This document shows positions 20,368 to 32,328 of a stretch of 63,855 bases of DNA, piece by piece; positions within the stretch are counted from its first letter, which is position 1, and each line of letters begins with the position of its first letter. The DNA is taken from assembly GCA_000517005.1 (NCBI GenBank), contig KI911965.1, positions 163,220 through 227,074 on the forward strand. Reading direction: 5' to 3'. The translations under genes and the position numbers were made by a program. Source of the DNA: Microvirga lupini (GTDB lineage: Bacteria > Pseudomonadota > Alphaproteobacteria > Rhizobiales > Beijerinckiaceae). The notes under the pieces are model-generated. The model ran no database searches and had not been told where the DNA came from. It was given only the letters and a program-made list of their open reading frames with translations.

Positions 20368-21702
20368 TTGCTTCAGATCCCGCTTCGCAAGCTATCCGAA
20401 CTCAAGCCTCAAGCTGCCCAACTCGATCGCTACGAACTGGCATCGCGGGATGAGCTTGCCGCCTGGCAGCGTGAGCGCCTCGCCTGGTCCTTGCACCATG
20501 CCTACGAGAACGTGCCGCACTACAAGGCGAAGTTCGACGCGGCGGGCGTGCATCCGGACGATTTCAAGGACCTGAGCGATCTTTCCAAGTTCCCCTTCAC
20601 CACCAAGGCCGATCTGCGGGACAATTATCCCTTCGGCATGTTCGCCGTTCCTCAAGATCAGATCGCCCGCGTGCACGGCTCGTCCGGCACCACCGGCAAG
20701 CCCACGGTCGTCGGCTACACGAAGCGCGACATCGACACCTGGGCCGACGTGGTGGCCCGCTCGATCAGAGCGAGCGGTGGGCGCCCGGGCATGAAGGTGC
20801 ATGTGGCCTATGGCTACGGCCTCTTCACCGGCGGATTGGGCGCACATTACGGCGCCGAGCGCCTGGGCTGCATGGTGATCCCCATGTCGGGCGGCATGAC
20901 CGAGCGCCAGGTGCAGCTCATCCAGGACTTCCAGCCCGACATCATCATGGTCACGCCGTCTTACATGCTGGCGATTCTCGACGAGTTCCGGAAGCAGGGT
21001 CTCGATCCGCGCAAATCCTCCCTGAAGGTCGGCATCTTCGGCGCCGAGCCCTGGACCAATGCCATGCGATCCGAGATCGAAGAGGCTTTCGACATCCATG
21101 CCGTCGACATCTACGGCCTCTCCGAGGTCATGGGGCCGGGCGTTGCCTGCGAATGCGTGGAGAGCAAGGACGGGCTGCATATCTGGGAAGACCATTTCTA
21201 TCCCGAGGTGATCAATCCGATGACCGGCGAAGTCCTGCCGGATGAAGAGGAAGGCGAGCTCGTCTTCACCTCGCTGACCAAGGAAGCGATGCCCGTCATC
21301 CGCTACCGCACCCGGGACTTGACGCGCCTCCTGCCCGGCACCGCGCGCAGTATGCGCCGCATGGAGAAGATCACCGGCCGCACCGACGACATGATGATCG
21401 TCCGCGGCGTCAACGTCTTCCCGACTCAGATCGAGGAAAAGCTCCTCGCGATCCCGACTCTGTCGGGGCATTACCAGATCATCCTGACCCGCGAGGGGCG
21501 GATGGACCAGATGGAGATCCGGGCCGAGATCCGCCCGGATGCCGATTATCCTGAGACCCGGAAGGCGGCCGCCGAGCGCTTGAGCCAGGCAATTAAAGAT
21601 ACTATCGGCATCACGGCTCAGGTAAATGTCCTCGATCCTGAAGGAATCGAGCGCTCGCTCGGCAAGGCGCGACGCGTAATCGACCGCAGACCGAAAGAAT
21701 AG
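20368..21702 (+). CDS. paaK: Phenylacetate-CoA ligase
   Basis: A 444-residue adenylate-forming ligase that activates phenylacetate with ATP and CoA. It has the P-loop-like VHGSSGTTGKPTVVGYT, the core motif YGLSEVMGPGVACEC, RTRDLTRLLPG and the C-terminal DDMMIVRGVNVFPTQIE. The start is a TTG at 20368, 5 bases after GGGAGG; no ATG fits the family N-terminus. It is the entry step of the pathway for free phenylacetate. Confidence 0.93.
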   Translation: MLQIPLRKLSELKPQAAQLDRYELASRDELAAWQRERLAWSLHHAYENVPHYKAKFDAAGVHPDDFKDLSDLSKFPFTTKADLRDNYPFGMFAVPQDQIARVHGSSGTTGKPTVVGYTKRDIDTWADVVARSIRASGGRPGMKVHVAYGYGLFTGGLGAHYGAERLGCMVIPMSGGMTERQVQLIQDFQPDIIMVTPSYMLAILDEFRKQGLDPRKSSLKVGIFGAEPWTNAMRSEIEEAFDIHAVDIYGLSEVMGPGVACECVESKDGLHIWEDHFYPEVINPMTGEVLPDEEEGELVFTSLTKEAMPVIRYRTRDLTRLLPGTARSMRRMEKITGRTDDMMIVRGVNVFPTQIEEKLLAIPTLSGHYQIILTREGRMDQMEIRAEIRPDADYPETRKAAAERLSQAIKDTIGITAQVNVLDPEGIERSLGKARRVIDRRPKE

Positions 21703-21711
21703 AAGAGTCCC

Positions 21712-22347
21712 ATGGCCCGCACCCGTGCCACCGATTATGACGACAAGCGCCGGGCGATCCTCGATCGCTCGGCCGAACTCTTTGCCGAGCACGGCTACGA
21801 TCGCGCCTCGATGAGCAAGATCGCCGAGGCCTGCGGTGTCTCCAAGGCCAATCTTTATCATTACTACAAGGATAAGGAGGAGCTGCTCTTCGACGTGATC
21901 CGCTTCCACCTCGAAGAACTGCTCGAGGTGGTGGAGGCGGCCGACCGTCCGGACCTCGCGCCGGCCGATCGCCTGAAAGAACTGGTCGCGGCCTTGCTCG
22001 AGGCCTATCGCGACGCCGACGCCCAGCACAACGTGCAGATCAATGGGCTGCGCCTGCTCTCCTCAGACCGTCAATCCGAGCTGAAAGCGATGGAGCGCGA
22101 CCTGGTGCGGATCTTCTCCGATGCGGTCGCAGGCGTCGCCCCGCAGCTCAAGAAAACCAAGCTGCTCAAGCCCGTGACCATGTCCCTCTTCGGCATGATC
22201 AACTGGCACTATCTCTGGTTCAAGAGCACCGGCGAGGTGACCCGCGCGGATTATGCCGAACTCGTTTCGCAGCTCATCGTGGACGGAACCCGCAATCTCC
22301 ATGTGGAACCTGCTGCCTCGTCCCGGCGCGTCAGCGCTGCGGAATAG
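21712..22347 (+). CDS. paaR: TetR-family regulator of phenylacetate genes (PaaR-like)
   Basis: A 211-residue TetR protein. The N-terminal helix-turn-helix (ASMSKIAEACGVSKANLYHY, near residues 33-52) follows the usual AILDRSAELFAEHGYDRAS helix. The C-terminal two-thirds is the helical ligand domain and includes GMINWHYLWF, common in fatty-acyl or aryl-CoA-responsive members. Position at the end of the paaG-paaI-paaK operon, plus two matching palindromes in paa promoters, make it the likely PaaR, released by phenylacetyl-CoA. The ligand is inferred. Confidence 0.83.
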   Translation: MARTRATDYDDKRRAILDRSAELFAEHGYDRASMSKIAEACGVSKANLYHYYKDKEELLFDVIRFHLEELLEVVEAADRPDLAPADRLKELVAALLEAYRDADAQHNVQINGLRLLSSDRQSELKAMERDLVRIFSDAVAGVAPQLKKTKLLKPVTMSLFGMINWHYLWFKSTGEVTRADYAELVSQLIVDGTRNLHVEPAASSRRVSAAE

Positions 22348-22369: not shown

Positions 22370-23173
22370 TCACTGCAAGGAGACTTGGCCGTCGATCTCC
22401 AGAGATGCATGCCCTGGAACGCTAAGACCGAAGCGTGAGAGCATCGGGTGAACGAGATTCTGCCACTGGGCCGTCAGCTCTTCCCTGCCCTTCTGGCGCA
22501 AACCGTATTTTCGATGCTGAGCGAAATGGTCCGACGTGCTGCTGCCGAAGGTATCGGCCACGCGCGGATACCAATAATTGACTGAGGCCTGAGCATCGGT
22601 CCTGTCGTGACCTTTTTCCAATGCGGCTTGCAATCCCTGTTGCCCAAGTTCCGCATGACGCCTCTCGACGGGAAGGATGTCGGCAAGTACATCGGCAAGG
22701 GGTTGGTAGGAACCGCGAGTCAGCTCATCGAGCTGCACCACGGTGGCCTGTCCCATCAGGCAATTCATCACCACCGCATCGACCCAGCCGTTGATCGGGT
22801 AATGGAACACGTTGAGGCGCATGTCTCCTTCCATGCGCCGCGTGCCGAGATTGACGCTCCGGTCGAGGCGGGACGCCCAGGGATGAGCACCCACATACTG
22901 GGCCGTATTGGCGCCGAACTGCTCCATCAGAGCCAGAACCTGACGGGCATGGTTGAACTTGTCGAAGACGATGCGGGTCGCAATGATCCGCTCCTTCAGC
23001 CCGGGAGCCAGATTGATGCAGTCGGCGAAGCCTGAGGCGCCTGCCATCTCGGAATCGACGAAGATCGCCATCAGGCGCATGAGCTCGCCGCGATAACGCG
23101 GCGTGACGTTGTCCGGTGCGCTTAAGCGCCCGCCCCCGGCCACGAAGGTGACGAGGCTTTCTTCATCGACCAT
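22370..23173 (-). CDS. Extra PaaA/PaaC-family ferritin-like protein
   Basis: A 267-residue protein of the phenylacetic acid catabolic (PF05138-type) ferritin-like fold, encoded 28 bases after paaE with its own AAAGGTG site. Helix motifs resemble PaaA: E42 in FVDSEMAG, then FDKFNHARQVLALMEQFG, and E170-R-R-H173 in VERRHAELGQQG. In the first E-x-x-H pair the glutamate is replaced by lysine (K72-F-N-H75), so a complete di-iron centre is doubtful; PaaC likewise lacks a full site. It could be an extra structural or regulatory subunit of the epoxidase, or a paralogue with its own role. A standard PaaABCDE set is already present. Confidence 0.7.
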   Translation of the reverse strand: MVDEESLVTFVAGGGRLSAPDNVTPRYRGELMRLMAIFVDSEMAGASGFADCINLAPGLKERIIATRIVFDKFNHARQVLALMEQFGANTAQYVGAHPWASRLDRSVNLGTRRMEGDMRLNVFHYPINGWVDAVVMNCLMGQATVVQLDELTRGSYQPLADVLADILPVERRHAELGQQGLQAALEKGHDRTDAQASVNYWYPRVADTFGSSTSDHFAQHRKYGLRQKGREELTAQWQNLVHPMLSRFGLSVPGHASLEIDGQVSLQ

Positions 23174-23201: not shown

Positions 23202-24278
23202 TCACTTGTCGAAATCGACCAGGATCTTGTCGCTGACCGGATAGCTCTGGCAGGTCAAAATGTAGCCGCGCGCGATCTCGTAATCCTCCAGGGCGAAATT
23301 CGCATCCATGTCCACTTCGCCTTCGACCAGCATCGCCCGGCAGGTGGAGCAGACCCCGCCCTTGCAGGCATAAGGCAGCTCGAGCCCCTCGTTCGTTGCC
23401 GCATCGAGCACGGAGGCCGTTCCCTTCTCGAACGACAGGGTGCGGGCTCGTCCATCGATGACGATCGTCGCTTCGCACAGGTTCTTGCGGTCCTCCGCCG
23501 TTGCCTCCTCAGGCCTGCGTTGGCGGCGGCTTGGGGTCGAGGTGGCGAAAAGCTCGAACTTGATCTGGCGCTTGTCGAGGCCATGCTCTTCGAGACTTTG
23601 CGCGACACCCAGCATCATGTCCTGCGGTCCGCAGATGAAGGCCGTATCGATGGACGATGCGTCGATCCAGTGGTCGAGGAGTTGGTCGCATTTCTCCTTC
23701 GTCAGGCGTCCGTTGAAGAGATCGAAATCCTGCTGCTCGCGGCTGAGAATATGGATGAGGCTGAAGCGGTCGAGATGCTCGTTCTTGAGATCCTCAAGCT
23801 CCTCACGGAACATGATCGAGCTCGATGCGCGATTGCCGTAGAAGAGTGTGAAGGAGGATTGCGGCTCGGCGACGAGCGTCGTCTTGACGATGCTGAGCAG
23901 CGGCGTGATTCCGCTGCCTGCGGCAAACCCCACGAAATGCCGCTTGCGAGTCGCATCCAGAGGCACGAAGAAATTGCCCATGGGGGGCATGGCTTCGATG
24001 ACCTGCCCGGGCGAAAGCTGCTCGCTGGCCCAATTGGAAAATGCTCCACCGGCAATCTTCTTGATCCCGACCCGAAGCCTGCCCTCCATCGGCGTGGCGC
24101 AGATGGAATAGGATCGCCGCACCTCGTCGCCGTCGATGTTGGTACGCAGGGTCAGGTACTGCCCCGGTGAGAAGCGGAAAGCCTCCTTATGCTCGTCCGG
24201 CACGTCGAGAGTGAGGATGATCGCGTCGCGGGTTTCGCGCCGCACATCGGCAACGGTGACGGGATAGAACTTTGTCAT
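23202..24278 (-). CDS. paaE: Phenylacetyl-CoA epoxidase reductase subunit
   Basis: A 358-residue reductase. It has an N-terminal FAD domain with RRSYSICATP, an NAD(P) domain with HFVGFAAGSGITPLLSI and CGPQDMM, and a C-terminal plant-type ferredoxin domain with the 2Fe-2S cysteines in CKGGVCSTCRAM plus a later C in YILTCQSYP. It passes electrons from NADPH to the PaaA di-iron centre. The ATG at 24278 fits the family start (MTKFYPVTVADVRRET); the extra 19 codons upstream overlap paaD and are not conserved-looking. Last of the core paaABCDE genes. Confidence 0.92.
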   Translation of the reverse strand: MTKFYPVTVADVRRETRDAIILTLDVPDEHKEAFRFSPGQYLTLRTNIDGDEVRRSYSICATPMEGRLRVGIKKIAGGAFSNWASEQLSPGQVIEAMPPMGNFFVPLDATRKRHFVGFAAGSGITPLLSIVKTTLVAEPQSSFTLFYGNRASSSIMFREELEDLKNEHLDRFSLIHILSREQQDFDLFNGRLTKEKCDQLLDHWIDASSIDTAFICGPQDMMLGVAQSLEEHGLDKRQIKFELFATSTPSRRQRRPEEATAEDRKNLCEATIVIDGRARTLSFEKGTASVLDAATNEGLELPYACKGGVCSTCRAMLVEGEVDMDANFALEDYEIARGYILTCQSYPVSDKILVDFDK

Positions 24279-24294
24279 GGAGCATCCGCTCGTT

Positions 24295-24807
24295 TCAAAT
24301 GCACTTGAAGTAGTCGAAAGGCTCGAGGCAATCACGGCACCGGTATTGAGCCTTGCATGGCGTCGATCCGAACTCGCTCACCCGATCCGTGTTCTCGGAT
24401 TTGCAGCGTGGGCAGGTGATCGTCAAAGGCTTGCGCAGGAACCGATCGAAGGGAGACGGCCCGCCCGCATTCTCGGCCGGCGGCGCGATGCCATAGGCCT
24501 CGAGCCGCCGCCGCCCCTCCTGGGTGATCCAATCGGTCGTCCAGGGCGGCGAGAGCCGACGCTCGATCCGCATGCGATCGATCCCTTTCGCTCGCAGGGC
24601 CGCTTCGATCTCGAAGGCGATGACGCTCGTCGCGGGGCAGCCAGAATAGGTTGGCGTGATCGCGACGACGAGCTCGTCGCCATCCCATTGCACATCGCGA
24701 ACGATGCCGAGATCCATGACGGAGACGGCCGGCACCTCCGGATCGGGAACCTCCGCCAGCCAGTGTCTGATCTGGTCCGGATCAGGCTGTGTCAGGCTGT
24801 CGATCAT
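24295..24807 (-). CDS. paaD: Phenylacetyl-CoA epoxidase assembly protein PaaD
   Basis: A 170-residue DUF59/MIP18-type protein. The N-terminal part has VPDPEVPAVSVMDLGIVRDV and TPTYSGCPATSVI, with the conserved cysteine. The C-terminal zinc-ribbon-like part has four cysteines in CPRCKSENTDRV and CRDCLEPFDYFKC. PaaD is needed for metal-centre maturation of the epoxidase. The ATG at 24807 is preferred over the GTG at 24828 that overlaps the paaC stop. Confidence 0.9.
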   Translation of the reverse strand: MIDSLTQPDPDQIRHWLAEVPDPEVPAVSVMDLGIVRDVQWDGDELVVAITPTYSGCPATSVIAFEIEAALRAKGIDRMRIERRLSPPWTTDWITQEGRRRLEAYGIAPPAENAGGPSPFDRFLRKPLTITCPRCKSENTDRVSEFGSTPCKAQYRCRDCLEPFDYFKCI

Positions 24808-24821
24808 CGATCCCGCGCTCC

Positions 24822-25580
24822 TCACCACGTCGCGTTGGGATAGGCTCGTTGCAGGAATTGAAGATCGGCCAGGATGTAGCCGAGATGCTCGGAGTGGATG
24901 CCCCGCTTGCCGCCCTTCTGCGCCCAGCCGGGCTGCGGCAAGGTGAGCGTCGCCTCCTCGGCTGTTGCACGAACGAGACCGAGCCAGGGCTCGTGCAGCG
25001 TCGCGAGATCCGGTCCGAGGCCCTCTTGAACCATGGCTTGATCGATCTCGTCGGATTCGAACAGCTCGCCCGTATACATCCAGAGATCGTCGATGGCCGT
25101 CTGCATGCGGCGGTGGCTCTCCTCCGTGCCGTCGCCGAGGCGCAGAATCCAGTCGCGGCTCCGCTCCAGGTGATAGGTGACCTCCTTGAGACCCTTCGCG
25201 GCGATCTCGGCGATCCGGGGATCCTTCGAGCCGGTCAGTTCGCGCAGCAGCAGATAATGCCAGGCATCGAAGTAGAACTGCCGCGCCATCGTGACGGCGA
25301 AGTCGCCGTTCGGCTGCTCGACGAGAAGGACATTGCGGAAGTCGCGTGCATCGCGAAGATAGGCGAGCTTGTCGGCATCGCGCCCCTTGCCTTCGACCTC
25401 GCCTGCGAGATTCAACCAGAGCTGAGTCTGCCCGATGAGATCGAGCGCGACATTGGAGAGCGCCAGATCCTCCTCAAGAGCAGGAGAATGCCCGCACCAT
25501 TCCGACAGGCGATGCCCCAGGATCAGGGCGTTGTCGCCGAGGCGCAGCAGATACTCGAAGAGAGCGTTCTGCGCGTTCAT
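24822..25580 (-). CDS. paaC: Phenylacetyl-CoA epoxidase structural subunit PaaC
   Basis: A 252-residue ferritin-like subunit (NALFEYLLRLGDNALILGHR; DLALSNVALDLIGQ; GLKEVTYHLERSRDWILRLG). PaaC pairs with PaaA but has no catalytic iron site in known structures. The ATG at 25580 immediately follows the paaB stop; a GTG one codon earlier overlaps it. Encoded in the canonical A-B-C-D-E order. Confidence 0.92.
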   Translation of the reverse strand: MNAQNALFEYLLRLGDNALILGHRLSEWCGHSPALEEDLALSNVALDLIGQTQLWLNLAGEVEGKGRDADKLAYLRDARDFRNVLLVEQPNGDFAVTMARQFYFDAWHYLLLRELTGSKDPRIAEIAAKGLKEVTYHLERSRDWILRLGDGTEESHRRMQTAIDDLWMYTGELFESDEIDQAMVQEGLGPDLATLHEPWLGLVRATAEEATLTLPQPGWAQKGGKRGIHSEHLGYILADLQFLQRAYPNATW

Positions 25581-25870
25581 CACATATGCCCCAGCTCTTC
25601 AGGGATCTCGTAGAAGGTCGGGTGGCGATAGACCTTGCTGTTGGCCGGGTCGAACAGCGGCCCTTTTTCGCTCGGCGAGCTTGCCGAAATGTCGGACGCC
25701 TTCACGACCCAGATGCTGACGCCCTCGTTGCGGCGCGTATAGACGTCGCGCGCATTCATGATCGCCATCTCCGCATCGGGCGCATGCAGGCTGCCCACAT
25801 GGCGATGAGCCAACCCATGCTGGCTGCGGATGAACACCTCCCAGAGAGGCCATTCCTTCTTATCGGTCAT
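25580..25870 (-). CDS. paaB: Phenylacetyl-CoA epoxidase subunit PaaB
   Basis: A 96-residue subunit with the family pattern WPLWEVFIRSQHGLAHRHVG, HAPDAEMAIMNARDVYTRR and EGVSIWVVKASDI, ending YEIPEELGHM. PaaB bridges PaaAC heterodimers in the full complex. The start at 25870 follows GAGAGGAAAG; the longer frame upstream overlaps paaA out of frame and is ignored. Confidence 0.92.
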   Translation of the reverse strand: MTDKKEWPLWEVFIRSQHGLAHRHVGSLHAPDAEMAIMNARDVYTRRNEGVSIWVVKASDISASSPSEKGPLFDPANSKVYRHPTFYEIPEELGHM

Positions 25871-25884
25871 CTTTCCTCTCCCGT

Positions 25885-26880
25885 TTACGCAGCCTTGGCC
25901 TGAGCGCGCGCCGCCTTCTTCGCCGCATAGGCGTCCGCCGCATCGCGCACCCACTGGCCCTCCTCGTAGGCTTTCACGCGCGTGCGCAGGCGCTGACGGT
26001 TGCAGGGGCCGTTGCCGGCGATGACCTGATAGAACTCGTCCCAGTCGATCTCGCCGAAATCGTAATGCCCGCGCTCCGCGTTCCACTTGAGATCCGGGTC
26101 GGGAACGGTGAGGCCGAGATATTCGGCCTGCGGCACAGTCTGGTCGACGAATTTCTGACGCAGCTCGTCGTTCGAGTTGATCTTGATCTTCCAGCGCATG
26201 GACTGGGCGCTGTGAACCGAGTCAGCATCGGACGGGCCGAACATCATGAGCGAGGGCCACCACCAGCGGTTCAGCGCATCCTGTGCCATCTGCTTCTGCT
26301 CGGGCGTGCCGCGGGCAAGCTTCGTCATCGCGTCATAGCCCTGCCGCTGATGGAAGCTCTCCTCCTTGCAGATGCGGATCATGGCGCGGGAATAGGGTCC
26401 GTAGGAGCAGCGCTGCAGCGGCACCTGATTCATGATCGCGGCACCGTCCACGAGCCAGCCGATGGCGCCGATATCGGCCCAGGTGAGCGTCGGGTAGTTG
26501 AAGATGCTGGAATATTTGGCCTTGCCGCTGTTGAGCTGTTCCATGAGTTCGTCGCGGCTCACGCCCAGCGTCTCGGCCGCGCAGTAGAGATAGAGACCAT
26601 GGCCGGCCTCGTCCTGTACCTTGGCGAGCAGGATGGCCTTGCGCTCCAGGGTCGGGGCGCGGGTGATCCAGTTGCCTTCCGGCTGCATGCCGATGATCTC
26701 GGAATGGGCATGCTGGGAGATCTGCCGGATCAGAGTCTTGCGATAAGCCTCCGGCATCCACTCCTTCGGTTCGATCTTGATATCGGCATCGACGCGGTCC
26801 TGGAAGACACGCTCCTCCGGAGACATCTCCTCTTTGGACTGGATGTGCTCGACGCCAGTCTTCACCATCTGTGCGTACAC
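25885..26880 (-). CDS. paaA: Phenylacetyl-CoA epoxidase catalytic subunit PaaA
   Basis: A 331-residue di-iron oxygenase subunit. Ligand motifs are visible: E61 in [16 protein letters not shown]91-A-G-H94 in [18 protein letters not shown], and E174-S-F-H177 in [13 protein letters not shown]. It inserts oxygen into the ring of phenylacetyl-CoA to form the 1,2-epoxide. The start is a GTG at 26880 (GTG TAC GCA CAG) with GGGAGAAG upstream, giving the common [10 protein letters not shown]-terminus. First gene of the minus-strand paaABCDE operon. Confidence 0.95.
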
Positions 26881-27093: not shown

Positions 27094-27109
27094 GTAACAG
27101 ATTTGTCAC
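27094..27109. promoter_or_regulatory. Inverted repeat upstream of paaA, candidate PaaX site
   Basis: GTAACAGATTTGTCAC is an inverted repeat (GTAACA, 4 bases, TGTCAC; five of six pairs) just upstream of the candidate -35 of paaA. It overlaps the last codons of paaX. The position suits a repressor or activator of the paaABCDE operon. The assignment to PaaX is inference. Confidence 0.3.
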
Positions 27110-28002
27110 CCGATCTTCAATTCGGCGCTCGGCTCCATAGCCGCGAAGCGCTGCCCGAAGTCTTGGTCGACGGCGGGCAGAGGTCCCGCATCGTTCTGGG
27201 CATGGATGTCGATCCAGCGCTCCGCCGCTGGCAGCAGCGTCCGGTAGATCGTGCCGCAGAGAGCGCGGGCCGCCGTTCCGGCCCAGGGTTTGGGGAGGAG
27301 TTGGGACGGCAGCAGCGGGTCCTTCAGAACCGCCCTGCGGTAATCGTGGATCAGGAGGACGCGCACCAGCAGCGCATCGAGATTCGTGAACCCGGCGCCC
27401 CGCTCCAGAGCGCCAAGGATGCCCGAATAGGTGTCGATGAAACGCTTGTAGCGGCCCTCGATCTCGGCCAGAGGCCACGCCCGCTCCACCAGCCTCCGGG
27501 CGGTCGGCAGATCGGCCGGAGACGCGGCGAGCCTCAGGAAGGGCCCCGTCGTGCCGGCCGCTGCCGTAGCCGCCATGAGGAGGTCCGGGCCGAGGGCGCC
27601 ATAGCCCGCCGCAGAGAGCTCGCTCTTGAGCGCGCTCCGGTCCTGGGCATTCTCGAGCAGGAGGAGATCGAAGGAACCCTGCCATTCCTGGGGCGGATCG
27701 GCATAGATCCGCCGTGTGGCCTGAGCGAAGGCCTCCTGCCCTTGTGGCGTCAGGCGGTAATAGCTGTTGCGCCCGACCTTCCAACGCTCGAACCAGCCTT
27801 CGGAAACGAGGCGGGACAGGGCCGTCCTGACGAGCGTGTCGCTGATGCGGAAGGCCCGCATGATCTCATGCAGCGACGCCAGGGACAGCACCCCACCCCT
27901 GGGCACCACCGCATCCCCGAAGAACGTCACGATCAGCGACCCCGCCCGGATCGGCATCCGCTCGTGAAACTTGTCCAGCAGGGTCTCCACAAACGCGGCC
28001 AT
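27106..28002 (-). CDS. paaX: Phenylacetate-responsive transcriptional regulator PaaX
   Basis: A 298-residue regulator. The N-terminal winged helix (SLASLHEIMRAFRISDTLVR, then the wing VGRNSYYRLTPQGQEAF) is followed by the PaaX core and the C-terminal PaaX domain (RVLLIHDYRRAVLKDPLLPS). PaaX family members repress paa operons until phenylacetyl-CoA binds. The ATG at 28002 follows GGAGTGG; a further 12 codons upstream are not family-like. The gene lies between paaA and the divergent paaZ. Confidence 0.9.
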   Translation of the reverse strand: MAAFVETLLDKFHERMPIRAGSLIVTFFGDAVVPRGGVLSLASLHEIMRAFRISDTLVRTALSRLVSEGWFERWKVGRNSYYRLTPQGQEAFAQATRRIYADPPQEWQGSFDLLLLENAQDRSALKSELSAAGYGALGPDLLMAATAAAGTTGPFLRLAASPADLPTARRLVERAWPLAEIEGRYKRFIDTYSGILGALERGAGFTNLDALLVRVLLIHDYRRAVLKDPLLPSQLLPKPWAGTAARALCGTIYRTLLPAAERWIDIHAQNDAGPLPAVDQDFGQRFAAMEPSAELKIG

Positions 28003-28131
28003 GCAAGCCCACTCCGATACCAATGGCCAAGGCGGCACTCGCCTCCTCGGTCCGTCTCTCCCTCACCTACCCACTGTTCGCCCTACCTGTCGAGCCGTCG
28101 CAGTTGCACGGAACATCCTCAAAATTCCTTG

Positions 28132-28214: not shown

Positions 28215-30242
28215 ATGAGACTCGAGAGCTTCGTTCGTGGAAGTTGGATGTCGCCCGGCCAGGACTTGGCCGACATTCGCAGTGCCGTCACCGGCGATGT
28301 GGTCGCGCAGGTCGCCAATGGCGGTCTCGATATGGGCGAGGTGCTGGCCTATGCCCGACAGGTCGGCGGCCCCAACCTGCGGAAGCTGACCTTCCATCAA
28401 CGGGCAGAACTTCTGAAACGTCTTGCCATTCATCTGTCAGAACGCAAGGACCAGCTCTACACGCTCTCCTTCCAGACCGGCACCACGCGATCCGACAACT
28501 TCATCGATGTGGACGGCGGCATCGGCACCCTCTTCGTCTATGCCTCCAAGGGCCGCCGCGAACTGCCCAACACTACCTTCCTTCTGGATGGAAATGTCGA
28601 GCCCCTTTCAAAGGGCGGCAGCTTCGTTGGGCAGCATGTGATGACGCCGCTCCATGGCGTCGCCGTTCACATCAACGCCTTCAATTTCCCCTGCTGGGGC
28701 ATGCTCGAAAAGCTCGCGCCCGCGATCCTGGCTGGCGTGCCGGTGGTCACGAAACCCGCGACGATCACGTCCTATGTGGCGCATGCGCTGGTGCGCATGA
28801 TCGCAGAGTCCGGCATTCTTCCCGACGGCGCGCTTCAATGCATCGTCGGCTCCACGGGCGACCTCTTCGACCATCTGACCTGCCAGGATGTGGTGTCGTT
28901 CACCGGCTCCGCCGACACGGCCCAGAAGCTGCAGCGGCACCCGGTCATCGCGCGCGAATCCGTACGCTTCATCGCCGAGCGCGACTCCTTGAACGCGGCA
29001 ATCCTGGCGCCTGACGCGGGACCGGGCACGCCGGAATTCGATCTCTTCATCAAGGAGGTCGCGAAGGAGATGACGGTCAAGGCCGGGCAGAAATGCACAG
29101 CCATCCGGCGCGCGATTGCTCCCAACGCACATGTATCTGCGGTGATCGAAGCTCTGGGCGAGCGGCTTTCCAAGATCAAGGTCGGCAACCCGGAACTTGA
29201 AAGCGTCCGCATGGGACCGGTTGTCGGCCTCGGACAACGCCGGGATGTGCTCGCGCAAGTGGCGAAGTTGCGGTCGGAGGCAGACATCGTTGTGGGTGAT
29301 CCCGACAACTTCACTGTGGAAGGCGCGGACCGCGAGCGCGGCGCCTTCATTCCGCCTCTCGTCCTGCATTGCCCGGACCCGATCCGCGCCACAAACGTGC
29401 ACAGCGTCGAGGCCTTCGGCCCTGTCTGCACCGTGATGGGCTATGACGGTCTCGATCAGGCCGTGGCCCTGGCCAATCGCGGCGACGGCAGCCTCGTGGC
29501 CTCCCTCTACACCTACGATCCCGCCACGGCGGCCGATCTCGTCTTCGGCGTCGGCGCCTTCCATGGCCGTCTGGTGCTGATCGACCGGGACTGTGCCAAG
29601 GAGCAGACCGGCCACGGCTCGCCGATGCCGCATATGGTCCATGGCGGGCCAGGGCGCGCCGGCGGCGGCGAGGAACTCGGCGGCATCCGCGGCGTGCACC
29701 ACTACATGCAACGCACCGCCCTGCAGGGCTCGCCCGCCATGCTCTCGCGCGTCACGCAAAGCTGGATCAAGGGCGCTCCGACCATCGAAGAGGGACGACA
29801 CCCCTTCCGCTACTATTTCGATGACTTGGCTATCGGCCAGACCTTCGTTTCGAAGGAGCGTACGATCACCCTCGAGGACATCGAGCACTTTGCGGAATTC
29901 ACCGGCGATACCTTCTATGCCCACATGAGCGAGGAAGCGACGAAGAACCATCCGTTCTTCCCCGGCCGCGTGGCGCATGGCTATCTGCTGTTGTCCTTCG
30001 CGGCAGGCCTCTTCGTCGATCCCGATCTAGGACCGGTGCTTGCCAATTACGGTCTCGATTCCTTACGTTTCATCAAACCCGTGCAGCCGGGCGAGACCAT
30101 CAAGGTCCGGTTGACGGCCAAATCCAAATCGCCGCGCAATGAGCAATACGGCGAGGTACGCTGGGACGTGGAAATCATGACGGAGAAGGGCGAGACGGTC
30201 GCAACCTATGAGCTCCTCACGATGAACGCGGTGCGTCCATGA
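28215..30242 (+). CDS. paaZ: Oxepin-CoA hydrolase / 3-oxo-5,6-dehydrosuberyl-CoA semialdehyde dehydrogenase (PaaZ)
   Basis: A 675-residue bifunctional enzyme. Residues about 1-510 form an aldehyde dehydrogenase with NAD-binding and active-site features, including the catalytic cysteine in VKAGQKCTAIRRAIAP. Residues about 530-675 form a MaoC-like hydratase (FTGDTFYAHMSEEATKNHPF, GRVAHGYLLLSFAAGLF) that opens the oxepin ring. Both halves are intact, so semialdehyde hand-off should work. The stop overlaps the next gene by four bases (ATGA). Confidence 0.93.
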   Translation: MRLESFVRGSWMSPGQDLADIRSAVTGDVVAQVANGGLDMGEVLAYARQVGGPNLRKLTFHQRAELLKRLAIHLSERKDQLYTLSFQTGTTRSDNFIDVDGGIGTLFVYASKGRRELPNTTFLLDGNVEPLSKGGSFVGQHVMTPLHGVAVHINAFNFPCWGMLEKLAPAILAGVPVVTKPATITSYVAHALVRMIAESGILPDGALQCIVGSTGDLFDHLTCQDVVSFTGSADTAQKLQRHPVIARESVRFIAERDSLNAAILAPDAGPGTPEFDLFIKEVAKEMTVKAGQKCTAIRRAIAPNAHVSAVIEALGERLSKIKVGNPELESVRMGPVVGLGQRRDVLAQVAKLRSEADIVVGDPDNFTVEGADRERGAFIPPLVLHCPDPIRATNVHSVEAFGPVCTVMGYDGLDQAVALANRGDGSLVASLYTYDPATAADLVFGVGAFHGRLVLIDRDCAKEQTGHGSPMPHMVHGGPGRAGGGEELGGIRGVHHYMQRTALQGSPAMLSRVTQSWIKGAPTIEEGRHPFRYYFDDLAIGQTFVSKERTITLEDIEHFAEFTGDTFYAHMSEEATKNHPFFPGRVAHGYLLLSFAAGLFVDPDLGPVLANYGLDSLRFIKPVQPGETIKVRLTAKSKSPRNEQYGEVRWDVEIMTEKGETVATYELLTMNAVRP

Positions 30243-32328
30243 CCGCAATCGCGTCATCCGGGGAGGCCGGGCCGGTCAGGCTGATTCCAACGGCTCCTGT
30301 CGCCGTGATCGAGATCGACAATCCTCCGGTCAACGCCACGTCGCAAGCCGTGAGGGCCGGTTTGCTTACGGCGATTCATGAAGTCGACTGCAATCCGCAG
30401 ATCGAAGCCGTCGTGATCGCCTGCGCCGGCCGCACCTTCGTGGCGGGTGCCGACATTCGCGAATTTGGGCAACTTCCACGCGAGCCGCATCTGCCCGACG
30501 TGATCGACGCCATCGAGGCCTGCTCCAAGCCGGTCGTTGCCGCTATCCATGGCACGGCCCTTGGCGGAGGCTGCGAGATTGCGCTGGCCTGCCATGCCCG
30601 TGTGGCCGAGCCGGGAGCAAGCCTTGGCCTGCCGGAGGTCAAGCTCGGGCTGGTTCCGGGAGCCGGCGGCACGCAGCGCCTGCCGCGTCTCGTCGGGCTG
30701 GAAGCCGCCCTCGATCTCGTGACGAGCGGACGGATCGTAAAGGCCGCGGAAGCTCTGCGCCTTGGCCTGGTCGACCGTCTCTCTTCCGGCGACCTGCGCC
30801 AGGATGCGATGGATTTTGCACGAGAACTGACCGGTCAGCCGCTGCGCCGCACCGGTGAGCGGGTTGTGACTGCACTGGACCCACAGGAGGCCTCTGCAAA
30901 AGTCGCGGAGATCCGCAGAAAGGCGAGAGGCGCCGAGGCGCCGGCTAAGGCCGCGGAACTCGTCCTATCATCCGCGAGCCTTCCGCTCGCGGACGGCATG
31001 GCGCGTGAGCGCGAGACATTCCTGGAACTGCGCTCGTCCGAGCAGTCGGCCGCTCTGCGCCACGCCTTCTTTGCCGAGCGGGAAGTGACGCGTCTTCCGG
31101 GTCTCGACTCGGTTGAGCCTCGCTCCGTCCAGAAGATCGGGATCGTCGGCGCCGGAACGATGGGGTCGGGCATCGCCATCGCCTTTGCGGATGCGGGTTT
31201 CGACGTCAAGATCGTCGAGACGAGCGAACAGGCGCTTGCCGCCGGGCAGGCGCGCATCGCGGATGTCTACGACAAGCAGGTCGCCAGCGGCCGGCTCACG
31301 GCGGCCGCGAAGGACGAACGCCTGCGGGCCATTGAGTATGCGGTTGGAACGAGCTCCCTGTCGGATCGAGATCTCGTCATCGAGGCGGTGTTCGAGGATC
31401 TGGAGGTCAAACGGGCGCTTTTCCGCGATCTCGATGCGTTCCTCCCGCCTGGAACCATTCTGGCAACAAATACCAGTTATCTTGATATTTCACTGATAGC
31501 CGCTGCCACGTCTCGGCCGGCCGATGTGGTGGGGCTGCATTTCTTCAGCCCGGCGAACGTGATGAAGCTCCTCGAGGTCGTGCGGACCGAGACCACGGCT
31601 GACGATGTCGTTGCCACGGGCCTGAGCCTCGCCAAGCGGCTGCGCAAGATCCCGGTCGTCTGCCGGGTCTGCGACGGCTTCGTGGGGAACCGCATCCTGT
31701 CGCGCTATCGCCAGCAGGCGGAATATCTGCTCGAAGAAGGCGCTCTCCCGCACGAGGTCGATGCCGCTCTCGAAGCATTCGGTTTTCCCATGGGTCCCTT
31801 CGCCGTATCGGACCTCGCCGGCCTCGACATCGCCTGGGCACGCCGCAAGCGCCTGGCCCCCACCCGCGATCCGCGCGAACGCTATGTCGACATTGCCGAC
31901 CGTCTCTGCGAGGCGGGACGCTTCGGGCGCAAGACCGGGGCTGGCTGGTATCGTTACGAGGGCGGCAAGCGGGAGGTCGATCCCTTCGTCACCGCGCTCG
32001 TCGAAGAGGCATCCAAACGACGTGGGCTGACGCGCCGACAGATCTCGGCCGAGGAGATTCAGTCCCGCATCCGGGCCGCCATCGTCAACGAGGCCTGCAA
32101 GATCCTCGACGAACGCATTGTCGAGCGGCCGCTCGATGTCGATGTGGTGATGATGCACGGCTATGGCTATCCGGCCTGGCGCGCGGTCCCCTGTTCGAAG
32201 CGGACCGTGTGGGACTGCAGCCGATCCTCGCGCAGGTGAAGGAGCGTGCCGAACGGGACGGACCCGGCTGGGAACCGGCCGAGGGTCTCGTCAGCCGCGC
32301 GGCTTCGGGAGCGAAGTTCTATCCCTGA
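30239..32328 (+). CDS. Crotonase/3-hydroxyacyl-CoA dehydrogenase fusion (FadB/FadJ-like), C-terminus frameshifted
   Basis: The N-terminal enoyl-CoA hydratase part has GRTFVAGADIREFG and GLPEVKLGLVPGAGGTQRL. The dehydrogenase part starts with KIGIVGAGTMGSGIAIAF, followed by GLHFFSPANVMKLLEVV and the C-terminal helical domain. It would supply the PaaF/PaaH-type steps from 3-hydroxyadipyl-type intermediates to oxo-acyl-CoA. The frame from 30239 stops at 32239, but the conserved ending after MMHGYGYPAWR continues in another frame (GGPLFEADRVGLQPILAQ) to a TGA at 32328. One base is missing near 32183-32190 (CGCGCGG where CGCGGCGG is expected). The strictly open part is 30239-32239, and the last 46 or so residues are altered. 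It may be a sequencing error or a true mutation. Confidence 0.85.

Follow-up and report, generated by a model that had tools for sequence, protein, structure and literature searches.

A third PaaA/PaaC-type protein encoded behind paaABCDE in Microvirga lupini: a candidate non-catalytic subunit of phenylacetyl-CoA ring oxygenases

Phenylacetyl-CoA epoxidase has been described as a complex of PaaA, PaaB, PaaC, and PaaE, with PaaD as an extra factor (PMC4498308, PMC9493321). What, then, is to be made of an operon that holds the genes for all of these and one more of the same kind? The question is raised by a stretch of 63,855 nucleotides from Microvirga lupini (GenBank assembly GCA_000517005.1, contig KI911965.1), here called the window. 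In it, paaA, paaB, paaC, paaD, and paaE form a complete operon, each scoring above its own NCBIfam cut-off (Table 1). Behind the end of paaE at 23202, after a gap of 28 bases, lies a gene with an ATG start that encodes a third protein of the ferritin-like family PF05138, 267 amino acids long and here called X. The original prediction had described five intact epoxidase genes and, 28 bases after paaE, a sixth protein of the PF05138 type with residues K72, H75, E170, and H173. All of this proved exact, down to the residue numbers. On the far side of the locus, the gene after paaZ (30239-32239) encodes a fused enoyl-CoA hydratase/3-hydroxyacyl-CoA dehydrogenase of 666 amino acids, which scores highest with the NCBIfam model FadJ (459.1 bits, cut-off 869) and lower with PaaH (226.1) and PaaF (122.6).

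Table 1. Features of the window, and one gene from a related locus, with the matches on which their naming rests.
Feature	Position	Strand	Match or remark
paaK-type ligase	20368..21702	+	Pfam AMP-binding and AMP-binding_C_2; also a neighbour in related loci
TetR-type regulator, convergent with X	21712..22347	+	Pfam TetR_N and TetR_C_24
X, third PF05138 ferritin-like protein, 267 aa	22370..23173	-	PF05138 91.3 bits; own clade 100/100
X E170-x-x-H173 (PaaA E155 and H158 positions)	22655..22666	-	E and H in 117/117 relatives
Codon of X G141 (position of PaaA ligand D126)	22751..22753	-	G in 116/117 relatives
Codon of X K72 (position of PaaA ligand E72)	22958..22960	-	K in 117/117 relatives
paaE, reductase	23202..24278	-	TIGR02160 460.3 bits, cut-off 420.8; scanned as 23202-24335, start placed at ATG by reading
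paaD	24295..24807	-	TIGR02159 197.6 bits, cut-off 108.15; scanned as 24295-24828
paaC, structural subunit	24822..25583	-	TIGR02158 302.9 bits, cut-off 133.35
paaB, bridging subunit	25580..25870	-	TIGR02157 149.7 bits, cut-off 85.45; scanned as 25580-25864, start placed at ATG by reading
paaA, catalytic subunit	25885..26880	-	TIGR02156 547.5 bits, cut-off 280; coordinates of the longest ORF, real start may be further in
PaaX-type regulator	27106..28038	-	TIGR02277 253.0 bits, just below cut-off 264.55; Pfam PaaX and PaaX_C
paaZ, full-length bifunctional	28215..30242	+	TIGR02278 1013.1 bits, cut-off 562.8
133-aa protein gene	L175:970-1371	minus	beside Y; relatives in 11/11 genomes

X is neither PaaA nor PaaC, by profile score, by tree, and by ligand set. 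It lies above the cut-off of 28.5 bits for PF05138 (PaaA_PaaC), but reaches 69 bits with the NCBIfam PaaA model (TIGR02156) and 39.6 bits with the PaaC model (TIGR02158), below the cut-offs of both. In all, 146 sequences, copies of the window included, were classed as X, leaving 117 distinct relatives of at least 230 amino acids besides that of the window, whose nearest named relatives are from Microvirga. The trees and conservation counts were made after near-copies, or some of the rows, had been removed. A tree of 91 proteins sets X apart as one clade (100/100), separate from PaaA (99/94), from PaaC (100/100), and from a further group, Y (100/100), to which we return below. The tree carries a long-branch warning where Y meets X, and for this reason the order among X, Y, PaaA, and a fourth group, W, is not used. 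Thus, the original prediction stands in holding X to be neither a standard PaaA nor a standard PaaC; it had named placement within the PaaC clade as the result that would count against it, and the PaaC clade is without X.

The fold tells a similar story. An AlphaFold2 model of X (pLDDT 88.7, pTM 0.86) has the ferritin-like fold of PaaA and PaaC, although its input of 50 rows (42 of X, the window included, and eight of PaaA) may have pulled it towards PaaA. Among solved structures, PaaA is nearest (Z 26.7) and SSO1313 of Sulfolobus (4mud) is tied with it (Z 26.0), followed by PaaC (Z 22.2) and BoxB (Z 21.7). The alignment with PaaA, about 22% identical, covers 245 residues and stops at residue 250 of a chain of 301, so that the C-terminal part of PaaA is seemingly missing from X. 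SSO1313 is the best sequence match to X among solved structures (E 4.1e-11), but is only 20% identical. BoxB, of the benzoyl-CoA epoxidase, shares the ferritin-like core, but its chain of 481 amino acids has no significant sequence match to X (phmmer E 0.6). PaaC resembles X in having a degenerate metal site, and X may be non-catalytic as PaaC is. PaaC, however, is degenerate in a pattern of its own, its commonest residues at the six ligand places being A/T/C, L, Q, D, V, and H. No description of X, or of the oxygenase proposed below, was found in the open-access literature searched (subscription journals are mostly outside this coverage), and papers that name PF05138 or the PGAP name of X include, by their titles and abstracts, none on X.

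The iron ligands of PaaA from E. coli are E42, E72, H75, D126, E155, and H158; a lysine bridge connects K68 to E49, E72, and D126, and F108 orients the substrate (PMC4498308). X has neither the six-ligand set nor the K68-E49 bridge. At the E72 position, lysine is invariant among the 117 relatives. The D126 position, G141 in the window, is glycine in all of them except one, which has glutamate; this is a second lost ligand, which the original prediction had not noticed. The remaining ligands have fared better. The glutamate at E42, present in the window, is kept in 112 relatives and departs in five; H75 is histidine in 104, asparagine in eight, and serine in five; E155 and H158 are kept without exception. 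As for the bridge, the E49 position is phenylalanine in all 117, and the K68 position is isoleucine, methionine, or valine in all 117. Methionine stands at the K103 position in 103, and the F108 position is phenylalanine in 100 and leucine in 17. D132 of the window protein was considered as a stand-in for D126 and ruled out, because its counterpart in PaaA is D117, a residue outside the set of six ligands.

Here, two ligands are lost nearly throughout the family, and the other two of the first site drift in some of its lineages. The alignment register is sound, since W, which comprises most of the other PF05138 proteins found, has glutamate at 72 and an acid at 126, some of its members having all six ligands. 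An invariant lysine at 72, together with the change of D126 to glycine, makes it unlikely that X holds a normal diiron centre. The departures at E42 and H75 are, of course, what would be expected if the first iron site were not needed. Over 65 thinned rows, 49 positions of X are at least 97% conserved. Among its ligand-bearing helices, mean conservation is 3.66 bits in helix B, 3.36 in E, 3.12 in C, and 2.90 in F. Helices B and C form the PaaA-PaaC interface (PMC9493321), and the conservation of helix B might be taken as a weak sign of an interface in X; PaaA and PaaC rows peak in other helices (PaaA: C 4.16, E 4.15, B 4.06; PaaC: C 3.73, B 3.08).

The genomic linkage of X is constant. A scan of named genomes gave 534 stretches encoding X relatives, of which the best 80 were kept. 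In 74 of these best 80 loci X follows paaE, and in 69 the full series ABCDE precedes it. Repetition on this scale means that the arrangement is not due to chance. The gap between paaE and X has a median of 22 bases over the 69 loci, and lies between -20 and 100 nucleotides in 67 of them. Four of the 74 loci end at contig edges, and one (L130) is without PaaC between B and D. The remaining six of the best 80 belong to a different setting, described below. X is linked to these two kinds of locus. L130 was examined as a case in which X might have replaced PaaC within a Paa operon, and was rejected; it is the only uncut one of the 74 without PaaC, and its metagenome-assembled genome (MAG) carries A, B, and C on another contig. 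That MAG has J-A-B-C at L206 (G1062:C48) and B-D-E-X-Z at L207/L130 (G1062:C202), with two copies of PaaB, and may be a mixture of strains.

X occurs, by named-genome records, in Rhizobiales, Rhodobacterales, Thalassobaculaceae, Parvularculaceae, and Gammaproteobacteria. Of 298 genomes sampled in the nearest family, 27 carry X with an identity of at least 47%, each with a second, PaaA-like match (not every one of these was read). Another 40 genomes have a single weaker match; among those that were read, L032 and L033 are PaaA, and L031 is another PF05138 protein. The 24 genomes listed for the genus, the window's own included, divide into 11 with both X and a PaaA-like match and 13 with neither. 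Across 387 alphaproteobacterial genomes, X (above 300 bits) is found in nine, four with PaaA and PaaC and five without them; by a hand count that asked for two rows above 200 bits, 52 of the sampled genomes have PaaA and PaaC, and 48 of these do without X.

PaaA to PaaE were concatenated for a tree of 48 operons, of which 27 have X (after thinning) and 21, E. coli among them, do not. The tree was quick, made without bootstraps, and carries warnings for E. coli and L191. All 27 operons with X fall in one lineage, together with two that lack it, L198 at its base and L199 nested within; the other 19 lie outside. The presence of X changes twice on this tree, against 15.9 times when labels are shuffled. 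The stretch searched after paaE in L199 holds no remnant of X. Measured against six Microvirga relatives, X has a dN/dS of 0.051-0.079; the values are 0.047-0.096 in PaaC and 0.021-0.046 in PaaA. X is thus under purifying selection, and no decayed copy was seen in relatives, decay being the other outcome that the original prediction had held against itself. Several matches to X seemed to contain one in-frame TGA, but recoding was considered and set aside: in the plus-strand loci that were read this TGA is an ordinary terminal stop, and the others are full-length open reading frames.

The second setting lies beyond the reach of the window, and it changes the picture that the original prediction gave. 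Eleven genomes carry X without the epoxidase: PaaA/PaaC are found in none of the 11, PaaB in none, and PaaE above its cut-off in none. Five came from the sample of 387 genomes, and six (Terasakiella pusilla, T. brassicae, two Methylocystaceae MAGs, a Rhodospirillales MAG, and a gammaproteobacterial MAG) were reached through named loci. Two are isolates, four are MAGs, and five are drafts of 120-350 contigs, so that a single absence could be a gap in the assembly; it is their agreement that counts. In two control genomes, that of the window and G801, the searches found both PaaB and PaaE.

What all 11 have instead is another PF05138 protein, Y. Among the 387 alphaproteobacterial genomes, Y occurs in exactly the five that have X without PaaA/PaaC (P 1.8e-9). 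An alignment of nine Y proteins keeps E42, E72, H75, E155, H158, and K68 in all nine, and has threonine at the D126 position in all nine; with that ligand missing, a catalytic role for Y is something that we infer. Among the genes probed, the neighbour of X in all 11 genomes is a flavodoxin gene that runs the opposite way, and beside Y, again in all 11, is a gene for a protein of 133 amino acids. The copy of the latter from T. pusilla has no NCBIfam match; the protein could be a counterpart of PaaB. Seven of the 11 showed a GltD-like FAD reductase close to Y. Near X, paaG is found in all 11, and paaK and paaI in nine, the contigs ending early in the other two. In T. pusilla, the locus scores above equivalog cut-offs for PaaK (689.8/646.3), PaaX (312.9/264.55), PaaI (148.9/118.9), and PaaN (841.3/578.75), and just below for PaaY (303.3/319.6); it has PaaG- and PaaH-like matches as well, and a thiolase read from the sequence. 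Neither its X (60.6 bits) nor its Y (83) reaches the PaaA cut-off of 280. A phenylacetate-type pathway is thus encoded here, in which X and Y take the place of PaaABCDE.

From this, it may be proposed that Y would be catalytic, that the flavodoxin would feed it electrons, and that phenylacetyl-CoA would be its substrate. Each of the 11 genomes also has reductases with matches to the PaaE model that fall short of its cut-off (up to 159.9 bits), and the flavodoxin therefore need not be the electron donor. X, Y, the 133-aa protein, the flavodoxin, and the FAD reductase may make up a second type of phenylacetyl-CoA ring oxygenase, replacing PaaABCDE in some Alpha- and Gammaproteobacteria, with X as a lysine-cored pseudo-enzyme common to it and to one lineage of PaaABCDE; this we advance tentatively, as a proposal that falls somewhat short of an even chance.

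For X itself, the reading that we prefer, and to which we would give an even chance, is that of a ferritin-like protein that serves phenylacetyl-CoA ring oxygenases, both PaaABCE and the candidate X/Y type, as a non-catalytic subunit; an additional structural subunit was among the options offered in the original prediction. In the Microvirga operon, X would be made together with PaaABCDE and, as an accessory or structural subunit, would most likely bind either the PaaA-type oxygenase or its electron-transfer side. A hint of the latter is that, in either setting, X has an electron-transfer gene as its neighbour. The diiron site of X would have given way to a core built on the pairing of the invariant K72 with the acids that are left, chiefly E170. 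In the other setting, X could do for Y what PaaC does for PaaA, within an oxygenase standing in for PaaABCDE and containing the 133-aa protein and the flavodoxin; in Paa operons, PaaC would stay and X would be an extra subunit. Several facts count against the subunit. The mostly kept E42 and H75 would be needless in a purely structural protein, PaaABCE of E. coli works without X, and X is missing from 48 of the 52 sampled alphaproteobacterial genomes with PaaA and PaaC.

The first of these facts suits the view that X is itself an enzyme, an atypical oxygenase or oxidase with one metal or none, which would act in both kinds of locus on a related aryl-CoA, as the original prediction also allowed, on a pathway by-product, or on an epoxide formed by overshoot. 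E170 and H173 are fully kept and K72 is invariant, the F108 position has phenylalanine or leucine, and the closest folds are those of PaaA and SSO1313. Such an enzyme would, however, have to do without two of its six ligands and without the lysine bridge, with methionine usual at the K103 position, with the C-terminal part of PaaA unmatched, and with E42 and H75 varying in some relatives; no separate reductase for it is seen in the Microvirga operon. We consider it unlikely. X might instead assist from outside the working complex, as a factor for assembly, iron loading, or protection of the oxygenase. Its adjoining an electron-transfer gene (paaE in 74 of the best 80 loci, flavodoxin in the 11 X/Y genomes) would agree with this, as would the MAG in which the unit B-D-E-X-Z stands apart from J-A-B-C, although that MAG may be a strain mixture. 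But PaaC, the non-catalytic paralogue that is known, belongs to the complex as a subunit (PMC4498308), and a maturation role has already been suggested for PaaD (PMC9493321), which leaves the assembly factor rather improbable.

A substitution for PaaC, in which an alternative PaaA-X heterodimer gives the cell two oxygenase isoforms, draws on the genomes with Y, where X is found and PaaC is not, and on helix B as the most conserved ligand helix of X. PaaC is found beside X in complete Paa operons, which argues that X is no simple replacement for it; there PaaC is kept and equally constrained, and X is nearer to PaaA than to PaaC in both fold and sequence. This possibility seems to us quite improbable. 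Lastly, X might be a vestigial paralogue that has stayed with the operon, a notion encouraged by the many PaaA/PaaC genomes that do without it and by its one clean loss inside the lineage, in L199. The purifying selection and strong conservation described above, the wide taxonomic presence, and the occurrence with Y in a second type of locus all argue to the contrary; a decayed or vestigial X is unsupported by dN/dS or by the L199 search, and we regard it as very improbable indeed.

These distinctions matter beyond the locus. PaaA and PaaC have been proposed as genome markers of the phenylacetate pathway; a 2026 survey reports that both are kept in each of the 825 proteomes that encode the ligase, and handles the pair as a single Pfam architecture (PMC13186573). 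Both X and Y hit this Pfam family, so that an X/Y locus could pass for PaaA plus PaaC when genomes are surveyed by Pfam architecture. If X and Y do form a second oxygenase, then the marker rule needs correcting, and a new ring-activating enzyme awaits study. If X is a subunit, the complex as modelled for rhizobia, Paracoccus, and Microvirga lacks a part. A further paper bears on operon evolution only (PMC2653477).

In RefSeq-derived records X goes by the name "Phenylacetic acid catabolic protein", a family name that assigns no function. An example is WP_011751025.1 of Paracoccus denitrificans PD1222 (PDEN_RS23920), whose locus runs paaX-type regulator, pcaF, paaABCDE, X, paaZ. Directly before the PaaX-type gene of the X cluster in P. 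denitrificans is an annotated penicillin G acylase (L205:3482-5854), a possible source of phenylacetate.

The family PF05138 holds other groups as well. W proteins of about 235 amino acids (L143-L159) have all six PaaA ligands in the members read over the whole site. Five genomes without PaaA/PaaC have a match with a W-like score pattern, itself unread, no more than about 1.5 kb from a PaaE-like reductase (G727:C33, G918:C275, G745:C239, G737:C110, and G777:C21), which may be another uncharacterised oxygenase. A second subgroup of W, of about 250-260 amino acids, also has all six ligands (L160, L162, L163, and L051); by BLAST, three of these four are nearest to Y, and L051 is nearest to X.
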